The notes beneath the pieces were generated by a model that did not search any database, had not been told where the DNA came from, and saw only the letters and a program-made list of their open reading frames with translations. From NCBI GenBank assembly GCA_017441045.1, contig JAFSAK010000035.1, forward strand, positions 1 through 6,077: a stretch of DNA of 6,077 bases. The letters run 5' to 3'. Origin of the DNA: Clostridia bacterium (GTDB taxonomy: Bacteria; Bacillota_A; Clostridia; Oscillospirales; Acutalibacteraceae). This document shows, piece after piece, positions 3,041-6,077 of this stretch. The position numbers and the translations under genes were made by a program. Position 1 is the first letter of the stretch. Each line of letters starts with the position of its first letter.

Positions 3041-3841
3041 ATGACTTCACCCACATTTGCAGTAAAAACAACTGCAAAAACAATTCTTAAAGGCAATTAT
3101 TATAGATGCATACTTGCGGCATTAATCCCCGCTTTTATTTCCCTTGCCCTCACCTTTACCGCCGGAATTTTAGAAGCTCCCTTCGGTAGCGCAGTGGCTT
3201 ACGGGGTTCTTGCCGTTGCGGAATTTTTTATAGTTTTACCTGTGTTTTTAGGGCTTTTGAGATTTTATCGCCGCCTTATGTGGAACGAAAAAGATAATAT
3301 AATTTCTGTATTTCACTATTTAAGCAGTGGTGAAAAATATAAAAAGGCGCTTAAATGCTCTTTTGTCTTTTTACTTCGTCTTTTATCAGTGGCGGTTTTA
3401 GCATATCTGCCCAGCATTTTTCTTTGGGTTATATCAAATGATGCCCTTTACGAATTCATAGGAATTAATATGCCCTCATTTATAAGAAGTTTTTCTGAGG
3501 CACAGACAGCTCTTATCACACTCAGCACCGCCGTATTTATCTTCTTTGCATTAAAGTTTTATTTAACCCCGTTTTTACTGGTAGCCGATGAGGATATGGA
3601 TATCGGCGAGGCGCTTCATATGTCGAAGGTGATTTCAAGAAAATCCACTATTGATTTTATTTCCCTTTTCTTTGGTATGTCTTTCTGGATTTTAATTTCG
3701 GTATTTTTAGTGCCCCTTCCCTTTACCCTTCCGTATATAGTTTTAGCATATATGGTCCATTGCCGTTTTGCAGTAGCCCATTATAATAAAACCGCCCAAA
3801 GAGAAAGCAACCCGCCTCAATTTTATTCTTCTGATTTTTAA
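3041..3841 (+). CDS. polytopic membrane protein, DUF975-like
   Basis: A 266-residue membrane protein with about five or six hydrophobic segments (roughly residues 22-44, 51-73, 107-131, 157-180, 206-224 and 226-243) and no signal peptide cleavage site that I can see. The N-terminus (VKTTAKTILKGNYYRCILAA) and the stretch after the fourth segment (LTPFLLVADEDMDIGEALHMS, followed by a basic SRKS) resemble the layout of DUF975/YciC-like integral membrane proteins. In those, a 'P-F-L-V-x-D ... A-L-x-x-S' amphipathic part precedes the last membrane pair. The biochemical role of that family is not established. The start is set by AAGGAG (3028-3033) seven bases before the ATG. It lies 26 bases after pcrA and 12 bases before the next gene, consistent with one operon. 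The family assignment is by eye and moderate; the membrane topology is firmer. Confidence 0.65.
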   Translation: MTSPTFAVKTTAKTILKGNYYRCILAALIPAFISLALTFTAGILEAPFGSAVAYGVLAVAEFFIVLPVFLGLLRFYRRLMWNEKDNIISVFHYLSSGEKYKKALKCSFVFLLRLLSVAVLAYLPSIFLWVISNDALYEFIGINMPSFIRSFSEAQTALITLSTAVFIFFALKFYLTPFLLVADEDMDIGEALHMSKVISRKSTIDFISLFFGMSFWILISVFLVPLPFTLPYIVLAYMVHCRFAVAHYNKTAQRESNPPQFYSSDF

Positions 3842-3853: not shown

Positions 3854-4291
3854 ATGAAAAAGAATGTATTTTTTATTATTATCTATGCTTTATCCCTTAT
3901 TGTATCTTTTGTCAATGTGGGTATCACCATAAAGGATAATCTTTTTTCGGATATCAACGATTTGCCCGAGGGAAACTATGCTTATAGCGTAACTTCGCCC
4001 GACGGTAGCAGAGTGCTTAATATATATATGGTTGAAAATTCCCTCGGCTCTGCCGCAAGGGGTGAAATAGTAGAGGGCGGTACCGCTAAAAATATTTTCT
4101 GGCAAACGGGTGCGGAGCATGTTGTTTCATTTTGGGAAAATAACGAAGTAGTTAATATTCACGAGGTTAGCATTAACCTTACTCACGGTGCGGTTTATGA
4201 CTGCCGCCGCGGTATTTCTCTCTTCCAAGAGGGAAATTTAAGCGGTAAGGATGCTCCCGAGATTATAGAATATTTAGAAGAAAACAAATGA
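3854..4291 (+). CDS. membrane-anchored small protein, DUF5412-like
   Basis: A 145-residue protein, counted from the ATG at 3854; the TTG just before it is in frame but too close to the ribosome binding site. Residues about 4-25 (VFFIIIYALSLIVSFVNVGI, after an initial Lys-Lys) form one membrane segment, either a signal anchor or an uncleaved signal sequence. The rest is predicted to lie outside the cytoplasm. The core, about 38-115, reads as short strands: YSVTSPDGSRVLNIYMVE, then GEIVEGGTAKNIFWQ, then VVSFWENNEVVNI. The 'SPDG ... Y ... KNIFW ... W-x-x-x-x-V-x-I' pattern resembles the DUF5412 family of Firmicutes, whose function is unknown. Its last bases overlap the rlmD start by ATGA, so translation of the two may be coupled. 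The family call is by recollection of the pattern and is moderate. Confidence 0.65.
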   Translation: MKKNVFFIIIYALSLIVSFVNVGITIKDNLFSDINDLPEGNYAYSVTSPDGSRVLNIYMVENSLGSAARGEIVEGGTAKNIFWQTGAEHVVSFWENNEVVNIHEVSINLTHGAVYDCRRGISLFQEGNLSGKDAPEIIEYLEENK

Positions 4292-5649
4292 ACAAAAACG
4301 ATATTATTAAACTCACCATAACCGCCGTTTCTTCCGAAGGCGCAGGCATCGGAAGATATGAAAACAAGGCGGTTTTTGTGCCTATGAGCGCCATAGGCGA
4401 CCAAATAAATGCCAAAGTTTTAAAGGACAAGAAAAATCTTGCCTTCGGTAAAATTGAAGAAATTTTAATCCCCACTACCGATAGAATCGAGCCCGACTGC
4501 CCCGCTTTCAGTAAATGCGGCGGTTGTGTTTGGCGCCATATAAATTACGAAGCCGAAAGCAAAATAAAAGAAAATAAGGTCTATGAGGCCATGCGCCGCA
4601 TAGGCGGAATAGATTTGCCCCCTCGCCCCATAATAAAGGCAGGAAATACCGAACGGTACCGCAATAAAGCCCAGTTTCCTTTAGCCCCCGACGGCTCGGT
4701 AGGTTTTTATGCCAATCATTCTCATAGGGTTATCCCTTCAAATGATTGTGCCTTGCAACCCGCCGTTTTTTCAGACCTTGCCGCCACCTTTCGCGAGTGG
4801 GTGCAAAGCTTTGGTGTTTCGGTTTACAGTGAAGATAATAAATCGGGGCTGCTTCGTCATTTTTATCTTCGAATAGCCGAAGCCACAGGGGAAATTATGG
4901 CGGTTTTAGTTATAAACGGCAACTCTATCCCCGAAAGCGAAAAACTTATTGAACTTTTAAAAGGCGCCGCAAAAAGCAATCTTAAAAGCGTTATGCTGAA
5001 TATAAACCAAAAGGATACCAATGTAATTTTAGGCGAAAAAAATGTACTCCTTTATGGTAAGGAGTATATCAAAGATATTTTGTGCGGCGTTAAGGTAAGA
5101 ATTTCTCCCCTTTCCTTCTATCAGGTAAACCGCACTATGACCGAAAAGTTATACGGCAAGGCCGCAGAGTATGCCGAGCCGCAGGATAAATATATCCTCG
5201 ACCTTTATTGCGGCGCGGGTACTATCGGTCTTTCTATGGCAAAAAGCGCCGCGCATATAATAGGCGTTGAGATTATCCCCGATGCCGTAAAAGATGCTAA
5301 AATTAATGCCAGAGAAAACAGCATTGAAAACGCCGAATTTATTTGCGGTGATGCGGCGGCCGCCGCCCGCGACCTTAAAAAGCGAAACATTAAGCCCGAT
5401 GCGGTTATTTTAGACCCCCCAAGAAAAGGGTGCGACAGTGAACTTTTATCTACCGTGGCAAAGGATTTCGCCCCCGAAAGAATAGTTTATGTTTCTTGCG
5501 ACCCCGCAACCCTTGCCCGCGACTCTAAAATCTTAACCGAACTTGGTTATACCCTCAAAGAATATACGCCTGTGGATTTATTCCCGAGAACCAGCCACGT
5601 GGAAACGGTAGCGCTGTTTCTAAAACTAAGTTTGCCTGACGGCAAGTGA
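4288..5649 (+). CDS. rlmD: 23S rRNA (uracil-C5)-methyltransferase RlmD/RumA family
   Basis: A complete 453-residue, SAM-dependent enzyme that methylates carbon 5 of a uridine in 23S rRNA (U1939 in E. coli; Firmicute relatives such as RlmCD can also act on U747). Seen in order: a TRAM-like RNA-binding beta domain (about 1-62); iron-sulphur cysteines in the C-x5-C-x2-C pattern, Cys71, Cys77 and Cys80, with Cys154 as the fourth ligand; the SAM-binding motif LDLYCGAGTIGLS (305-317); DPPRKGCD (376-383); the catalytic nucleophile Cys404 in YVSCDPATLARD; and the general base Glu439 in FPRTSHVET. The 35-residue spacing of Cys404 to Glu439 equals that of RumA (Cys389-Glu424). The start overlaps the previous stop as ATGA with only a weak purine stretch upstream, suggesting translational coupling. 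The last residues (about LPDGK) and the stop codon are encoded by the hairpin array that follows, so the original C-terminus may have been altered. Exact target site not decidable from sequence. Confidence 0.95.
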   Translation: MNKNDIIKLTITAVSSEGAGIGRYENKAVFVPMSAIGDQINAKVLKDKKNLAFGKIEEILIPTTDRIEPDCPAFSKCGGCVWRHINYEAESKIKENKVYEAMRRIGGIDLPPRPIIKAGNTERYRNKAQFPLAPDGSVGFYANHSHRVIPSNDCALQPAVFSDLAATFREWVQSFGVSVYSEDNKSGLLRHFYLRIAEATGEIMAVLVINGNSIPESEKLIELLKGAAKSNLKSVMLNINQKDTNVILGEKNVLLYGKEYIKDILCGVKVRISPLSFYQVNRTMTEKLYGKAAEYAEPQDKYILDLYCGAGTIGLSMAKSAAHIIGVEIIPDAVKDAKINARENSIENAEFICGDAAAAARDLKKRNIKPDAVILDPPRKGCDSELLSTVAKDFAPERIVYVSCDPATLARDSKILTELGYTLKEYTPVDLFPRTSHVETVALFLKLSLPDGK

Positions 5650-5799
5650 AGTTGCGACTACGCAGTGAAGTTCACTTCCGTGAGTGAAGTTTCGCCCCAA
5701 GGGGCTAAGTGGCAAACTTAACTTCTCTTTTGCGCAGCAAAAACTTCACTATGAGCGAAGCGGATAACTTCACTTTGGGCATCTGCCCAAAACTTCACT
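5627..5799 (+). repeat. hairpin array with inverted 9-base words AGTGAAGTT / AACTTCACT
   Basis: Left-half copies of AGTGAAGTT lie at 5645-5653, 5664-5672 and 5683-5691. Right-half copies of its exact reverse complement AACTTCACT lie at 5742-5750, 5766-5774 and 5791-5799, plus AACTTCTCT at 5720-5728. Each gap holds a small hairpin: TTGCC/GGCAA (5632-5636, 5641-5645), TGCG/CGCA (5653-5656, 5661-5664), TCAC/GTGA (5672-5675, 5680-5683), GCCCC/GGGGC (5694-5698, 5701-5705), TAAGT/ACTTA (5706-5710, 5716-5720), TTTTGC/GCAAAA (5728-5733, 5737-5742), an imperfect one at 5751-5765, and TTTGGGC/GCCCAAA (5774-5780, 5785-5791). Left and right words can also pair in nested order. No hairpin has a following T tract, so this is not an ordinary intrinsic terminator. 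The repeat structure is directly visible; the function is unknown. It starts inside rlmD and fills the gap before the four-helix-bundle gene. Confidence 0.93.
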
Positions 5800-5807
5800 C
5801 ATCACCT

Positions 5808-5814
5808 AAAGGAG
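5808..5814 (+). promoter_or_regulatory. ribosome binding site of the four-helix-bundle gene
   Basis: AAAGGAG lies six bases before the ATG at 5821. It is the first unstructured stretch after the last AACTTCACT word (ends 5799), so folding of the array need not hide it. Confidence 0.85.
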
Positions 5815-5820
5815 AAATTT

Positions 5821-6077
5821 ATGAAGGATTCACCATTGCGCACCAGAGCTAAAAATTTAGCTTTGCACATAATTTCCGTTTGTGACCAAGTGGATACAAA
5901 AAAAGGCAGAGGTGTGCTTGTAAATCAAATTGTGCGTAGTTCTACTTCTGTCGGTGCTAATATTCACGAGGCCAACTACGCAGTAAGCAAAGCGGATTTT
6001 ATAAACAAATTACATATTGCCTTAAAAGAATGTAACGAAACAGAACATTGGATTGATATGCTTGGCGGCTCTAATGC
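5821..6077 (+). CDS. four-helix-bundle protein, S23/IVP family, 3' end missing
   Basis: From ATG 5821 the frame is open to the end of the window, giving 85 residues. Family members are usually about 115-130 residues, so roughly the last third is missing. The sequence has the family hallmark in order: VNQIVRSSTSVGANIHEA (34-51), then AVSKADFINKLHIALKE (54-70), then CNETEHWIDML (71-81). This fits PF05635/TIGR02436, the 23S rRNA-intervening-sequence proteins, small all-helical proteins that form pentamers. The Avd accessory protein of diversity-generating retroelements has the same fold. The N-terminal helix (about 6-25) precedes a short KKGRG turn. The molecular role of stand-alone members is not established; nucleic-acid binding has been proposed because of the rRNA and retroelement links. 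A strong ribosome binding site supports the start. It is separated from rlmD by the hairpin array and may be transcribed independently, though I saw no convincing promoter. Confidence 0.93.
   Translation, partial: MKDSPLRTRAKNLALHIISVCDQVDTKKGRGVLVNQIVRSSTSVGANIHEANYAVSKADFINKLHIALKECNETEHWIDMLGGSN

Follow-up and report, generated by a model that had tools for sequence, protein, structure and literature searches.

MITE and REP-BIME repeats and the STRR heptamers of cyanobacteria are short, dispersed, palindromic or 7-nt tandem repeats of intergenic DNA. Intervening sequences (IVSs) of 23S rRNA take the place of small tetraloops in 23S helices, and those with an IVP/S23 reading frame share with the locus described here an IVP-family gene, inverted-repeat ends and sporadic horizontal spread (PMC4990558). 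The IVS reading frame was proposed as a component of mobility in a 1993 hypothesis (Ralph and McClelland, cited in PMC4990558), and a solved relative of the protein is a pentamer of four-helix bundles (PMC4990558). IVP genes are also contained in cas loci, one of them between cmr3 and cmr2 (PMC3936711), and in CPR bacteria they occupy several insertion sites in rRNA, according to a source which terms the family functionally uncharacterised (PMC11270868). The family resembles Avd of diversity-generating retroelements, a PF05635-family homologue which acts with a nucleic-acid substrate (PMC10053308). A further related entity is Gut-1, which its describers list as a non-coding RNA found in the human gut only (PMC2864571).

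The stretch of DNA analyzed here (the window, 6077 bases) holds an RlmD-type gene and an IVP gene, with a ladder of mirrored short words occupying the gap between them. Its features are as follows.

4288..5649, plus strand: gene for an RlmD/TrmA-type RNA uracil-5 methyltransferase, the host gene (PF05958, 4.7e-23; same position in relatives)
5602..5620, plus strand: short degenerate hairpin GAAAC/GTTTC at the rlmD end, where relatives have the X-X' hairpin (sequence; X-X' test score 10)
5623..5695, plus strand: left half, Gut-1-like (RF01706; 32.5 bits, E 9e-5, below the gathering score of 50)
5627..5636, plus strand: left arm TAAGTTTGCC, with two possible pairing partners, GGCAA nearby (5641-5645) and the central arm (sequence complementarity)
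5645..5653, plus strand: left word 1 (exact 9-mer)
5653..5664, plus strand: side hairpin TGCG/CGCA (sequence; family covariation)
5664..5672, plus strand: left word 2 (exact 9-mer)
5672..5683, plus strand: side hairpin TCAC/GTGA (sequence; family covariation)
5683..5691, plus strand: left word 3 (exact 9-mer)
5694..5705, plus strand: third left hairpin GCCCC/GGGGC, in many relatives TCGCC/GGCGA (sequence; helix 4 of the covariation test)
5711..5720, plus strand: central arm GGCAAACTTA, a perfect partner of the left arm (in 66 of 82 ladders the two arms are fully complementary)
5720..5727, minus strand: decayed first right word AACTTCTC (word search)
5728..5742, plus strand: right hairpin TTTTGC/GCAAAA (sequence)
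5742..5750, minus strand: right word 2 (exact 9-mer)
5766..5774, minus strand: right word 3 (exact 9-mer)
5774..5791, plus strand: right hairpin TTTGGGCA/TGCCCAAA (inverted-repeat search)
5791..5799, minus strand: right word 4, the right edge of the array (exact 9-mer)
5821..6077, plus strand: 23S_rRNA_IVP gene for a four-helix-bundle protein, truncated at its 3' end by the window edge (PF05635, 1.7e-18; PDB 2rld, 1.3e-18)

The six 9-mers which the initial annotation had placed in mirror order are all exact at these coordinates, and the window contains 11 matches to the word at one mismatch (nine in the ladder), compared to a mean of 0.9 and a maximum of 4 in 200 shuffles. The proposed pairing of three words with three was incomplete, since the right side holds a fourth, decayed word at 5720-5727, which makes the layout 3+4. 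Similarly, the "apical" TAAGT/ACTTA is located at the end of the arm GGCAAACTTA, whose perfect complementarity to the left arm indicates that the element starts at about 5627 or earlier. The stems TGCG/CGCA and TCAC/GTGA share one base with the words on each side. With two partners available to the left arm within 5627-5720, the adjacent GGCAA and the central GGCAAACTTA, a conformational switch would be possible. The rlmD reading frame stops within left word 1, placing the element at the rlmD 3' end, while its right boundary falls beyond the window. The IVP reading frame scores 67.2 bits against PF05635 (cut-off 33.8) and thus belongs to the IVP family; AAAGGAG at 5808-5814 is likely its ribosome-binding site. 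The window matches nothing in Rfam at gathering score, and the element follows an rlmD-type gene rather than lying inside a 23S rRNA gene. In contrast to the 23S IVSs, it sits at the 3' end of a protein gene, other copies sit in terminator loops, and the ends are arrays of short words. The fold is as distinctive as the initial annotation held, although that annotation had overlooked that an IVP gene follows, that the element is probably mobile, that it resembles Gut-1 RNA and that it lies at the rlmD 3' end. We propose that the ladder probably serves in cis as the end structure of a mobile element, in which the adjacent IVP gene is the sole evident gene; mobility itself is highly probable, and a partnership between IVP and array is the reading that we favor on balance.

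A scan of a species-genome collection for the word occurring three times returned at least 120 loci, mostly, by the titles of the matches listed, from Clostridia and Oscillospiraceae MAGs of ruminant guts. Counts from scans and lists are lower bounds throughout, and most genomes are MAGs, so that binning errors could affect individual genomes. At least 137 clusters of three or more words were found, comprising 73 two-sided clusters, 60 one-sided clusters (13 near a locus end) and four with a single word on one side; the one-sided class includes five loci whose regular spacing fits a reading as coding tandem repeats (L099, L104, L142, L153, and L157). The layout is convergent, plus then minus, in 72 of the 73 two-sided clusters among the matches listed, where 3+4 or 4+3 is commonest (37/73) and 3+3 less frequent (18/73). 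Left and right word counts are often unequal among these clusters, and one-sided arrays occur. The usual order is a hairpin, TAAGTTTGCC, word-hairpin-word-hairpin-word, TCGCC/GGCGA, GGCAAACTTA and the right words with their hairpins. The constancy of the word against changing side hairpins, as surmised from the window, is borne out across the family. A looser word pattern was used for 67 viral stretches, with wider-gap clustering on one (L028) and, on the other 66, a gap too tight for ladders such as those of L028; L028 contains two ladders of the window's layout, and IVP is absent from this locus. Near its ladder lies another inverted-repeat stretch, GATTGCCACGCCAGTG ... CACTGGCTCGCAATGACA (L028:4260-4500).

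Copies are dispersed within genomes: all 12 of 12 genomes picked for holding an array carry 7-72 word pairs, the reversed pattern occurring 0 or 1 times. Presence is patchy between genomes. Matches were found in 7 of the 74 genomes of one family, about four of them with real arrays by eye, and the ATGAATTG array, present as 13 pairs in genome G268, is represented in five other genomes by one pair each in two and by none in three. Dispersed copies together with occupied and empty sites, as looked for in a transposon or MITE, are a finding on relatives rather than on the window's own genome.

The 3' end of rlmD was compared among congeneric loci in the genus of genome G009, where RlmD was matched in 18 of 21 genomes and 17 loci were retained after a weak match (L338) was dropped. 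Seven of these 17 sites are occupied, by four different words, and ten are empty. The occupied ends carry GTGAAGTT (L304, L327, and L331), ATGAATTG with an IVP gene (L323 and L330), GCGATATA (L329) or GTGATATA (L336), the sequences of L327 and L336 ending shortly beyond the site. RlmD of the empty locus L322 is 97% identical to that of the occupied L304. Across the wider family, the site is occupied in 5 of the 30 loci read, with fewer than 100 bases past the gene in L285 and L288. A stretch of about 65 nt, GGACAAATGTGAGTTTTGAGCAAAACTCGAAA...TATAACATATCGAAG, which possibly represents a leader or a further repeat, recurs ahead of genes, both at empty and at occupied rlmD ends (L074:2022-2075 and 3298-3352; L186:1675-1742; L303 after the IVP gene).

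At each of the seven occupied sites the last rlmD codons have an inverted copy, and together the two form a hairpin at the left end, with rlmD coding sequence as its 5' arm. The hairpin score is at least 20 in 7/7 occupied and at most 14 in 10/10 empty sites, own matches averaging 28.3 and cross matches 13.6. In a wider set, the corresponding X-X' test gave at least 18 in 10 of 13 occupied and in none of 25 empty sites, the lower scores belonging to the window (10), L101 (12), and L289 (15); cross pairs reach 36 (median 10, 99th percentile 26) since some hosts share X. Formation of this hairpin from the target upon insertion is contradicted by L074, L154, and L186, which carry the identical X hairpin at second sites, so that X appears to travel with the element. 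By eye, the arrays of L102, L133, L146, and L155 likewise follow a hairpin starting in or at the end of a gene. No target-site duplication, transposase or recombinase was noticed in an unsystematic reading of junctions. In incidental inspection, no reverse transcriptase or template repeat of the kind known from diversity-generating retroelements came to notice either.

Horizontal transfer is seen in five host pairs whose IVPs are 95-99% identical, compared to 37-51% for the adjacent RlmD stretches (99 and 51% in L303-L330, 96 and 48% in L074-L182, 95 and 37% in L182-L226). In L303-L330 and L074-L226 the block of similar DNA begins no more than about 30 nt from the hairpin, whereas in L074-L182 its start lies about 120 nt earlier. 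Compared to IVPs linked to GTGAAGTT at other loci, the IVP of the window has an identity of 68-86%, and its RlmD is 34-49% identical to the RlmDs of GTGAAGTT loci.

Twelve IVP reading frames were found among 122 sources (120 loci among the matches listed, L028 and the window). Eleven of them adjoin an GTGAAGTT array, including a much shortened one in L149, and the remaining one, in L079, is accompanied by a word of its own, TCGATATG. A second array or a left half follows the IVP gene in L133, L146, and L155; between the two arrays after the IVP gene of L155 lies a small gene without family assignment (1653-1975), giving a cassette-like arrangement. Most scan loci among the matches listed have no IVP gene beside the array, and some loci end close to it. 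Other IVP genes are associated with ATGAATTG, GTGATATA, ATTTAGCT, TATTCATT and further words, many with hairpins, and some are surrounded by plain 7-nt tandem words. In L243, L246, and L247 the IVP gene precedes the same gene, gpsA-like by reading, with a different 7-nt word in each, which recurs as its reverse complement across the IVP gene.

Of 58 IVP flanks, 30 contain inverted 8-mer words (against 0.17% of shuffles), and 15 of 42 do so after the 16 loci fetched by the word or through rlmD were left out; the control value for other reading frames, some neighboring the same arrays, is 24/177. When the upstream flank was aligned to the reverse-complemented downstream flank, a threshold score of 30 was reached by 15 of 41 Clostridia IVPs and missed by 26 (permuted 8/399; other reading frames, possibly including neighbors of the same arrays, 3/67), and was reached by 24 of 40 Bacteroidia IVPs and missed by 16 (permuted 6/313; other reading frames n = 2 only), the IVP loci being best matches and not a random draw. 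Inverted words thus often flank IVP genes in both classes, which indicates that a change of the left word from one family to another is matched by a change of the right word. IVP genes are common: in Bacteroidia, 94 of the 119 genomes searched have matches that exceed the cut-off, and a single genome can have up to 23 matches. IVSs in rRNA are rejected for the 40 IVP loci examined, at which no rRNA match was found.

The word is furthermore coupled to the IVP lineage: the nearest IVP shares the word in 22 of 26 hairpin-type IVPs (permuted mean 5.5, maximum 13 in 2000 permutations), with a median IVP identity of 84% within and 55% between words. The three GTGATAT-type IVPs form no group, however (median identity 54). 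This coupling bears on the strongest alternative, in which the arrays are non-autonomous repeats that some unrelated enzyme, such as a transposase of the HUH or DDE type, moves in trans, and the IVP is a passenger or accessory. Copies without IVP do outnumber the IVP-linked ones among the loci listed, and hairpin arrays at gene ends are reminiscent of REP-type elements. Still, we regard trans-mobilization of this kind as rather unlikely, since the word type follows the IVP lineage and IVPs of two classes, Clostridia and Bacteroidia, have inverted words of their own. The arrays also differ from MITE, REP-BIME and STRR repeats in being mirrored and in following the IVP lineage, and no transposase ends were identified. 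The simplest account is a mobile element that exists in IVP-bearing and array-only forms.

The ladder could alternatively act as a structured RNA, either a Gut-1-like leader or 3' UTR regulating the IVP gene or a structure protecting or processing the rlmD transcript. RNA folding of 5627-5820 yields -65.6 kcal/mol, compared to -47.3 +/- 4.7 for shuffles (z -3.9; 0/200 as good). In the comparison which the initial annotation had suggested, the ladder is preferred over a row of independent hairpins: the free fold of 5627-5798 reaches -63.9, against -46.3 with the pair span limited to 40 nt, and pairs 23 of at most 24 word bases with another word. The ladder fold beats the short-range fold in 82/82 family ladders, with a median gain of 17.6 kcal/mol that falls to 8.65 kcal/mol upon reversal of the right words. 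The side hairpins covary in an alignment of 18 hand-picked ladders of the 82, with 93.6% of cells paired (82.7 when shuffled) and both-side changes in 14 of 30 pairs, amounting to 47 cells (shuffled mean 10.5; 0/500 shuffles as high). Slid versions of the pairing score far lower in this alignment, and segments of the same slot pair at 81-93% with their own partner and at 58-83% with others.

The words behave differently from the side hairpins. Word-word pairs show zero variation in the 18-ladder alignment, an invariance which is uninformative as nothing varies and the loci were fetched by the word itself. Among the 82 ladders, 2 of 20 single-mismatch left words share the change with a right word, one of these cases (L100) being an overlap with the central arm. 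Word changes within the family are therefore mostly uncompensated; between families covariation holds, with other words each accompanied by their own reverse complement. The view that constraint acts on the helix formed between words is accordingly supported only in part, by complementarity between families and not by covariation within the family. As to the type of pairs, the left-half hairpins between words comprise 206 Watson-Crick, 0 G-U, 1 A-C and 6 other pairs, hinting at a constraint at the DNA level, whereas the right half, with 21 G-U and 10 A-C on the plus strand (10 G-U and 21 A-C in reverse complement), gives no such hint. Together with the 10 G-U among 534 cells of the side-hairpin alignment, these counts leave room for RNA.

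The likeness to Gut-1 lies in hairpins parted by GUGAAA-type words, three of which hairpins are present in the window; its left half aligns to model positions 1-77 of RF01706 below the cut-off. Two sister copies in L074 (52 and 51 bits) and, with another word, L248 and L265 (57 and 63.5 bits) exceed this cut-off, which was not reached in 13 of the 16 sources scored. Hammerhead and preQ1-II matches in the window are far below their cut-offs. Whereas Gut-1 is listed from the human gut, the sequence here makes up one of the two mirrored halves of an element from MAGs of ruminant guts, partly beside an IVP gene. A literature search, in which few subscription journals were covered, yielded no work that connects Gut-1 with IVP genes and short-word arrays. 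The Gut-1-like left half, the strong fold, the covarying side hairpins and the excess of G-U over A-C in the right half thus speak for a structured RNA. Against it, most array loci listed have no adjacent IVP gene, positions differ between genomes, the left-half hairpins lack G-U pairs, and the right half mirrors the left so that neither strand is privileged. Overall, an RNA function as the explanation of the ladder appears improbable.

In several MAGs the array lies within an intrinsic-terminator-like stem, with the upstream arm starting about 50 nt before the left arm and the downstream arm and T run 130-200 nt past the last word. Among the 72 of 82 ladders tested (10 were left out for short flanks), perfect outer stems of at least 11 nt occur in 9/72, compared to 1/1424 permuted, and of at least 10 nt in 11/72, compared to 10/1424. 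The window copy is not of this kind. Two terminator-like sites do lie near the ladder on the minus strand (shuffles 0.5), but an ordinary terminator or chance repeat cluster is very hard to reconcile with the word statistics (11 matches against 0.9), the family-wide layout and covariation and, as the initial annotation had noted, a plus strand without any terminator (GC hairpin and T run) in 5500-5900.

Under the proposed reading of the ladder as the end structure of a mobile element, the element would settle at gene 3' ends, with rlmD as a hot spot, and the array-only form would spread within the same genomes, partly into terminator loops. The IVP, if a pentamer like its solved relative, would recognize the word specific to it together with the intervening hairpins, thereby marking the element DNA, perhaps in single-stranded or cruciform state, for movement by an enzyme of the host or the element. 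More tentatively, and with less than even confidence, we suggest that IVP genes define a new class of mobile elements, consisting of a lone four-helix-bundle protein without its own transposase and of ends made of inverted short-word arrays (7-9 nt, plain tandem or hairpin-spaced) specific to the IVP lineage. Hairpins and the 3' ends of genes would be the insertion sites of such elements, of which the intervening sequences of 23S rRNA would be a long-known special case.

These findings provide a context for the orphan Gut-1 RNA and make the 1993 hypothesis on the mobility of the IVS reading frame testable. With a protein tied to lineage-specific word arrays, DNA movement or genome marking would gain a partner of a new type.
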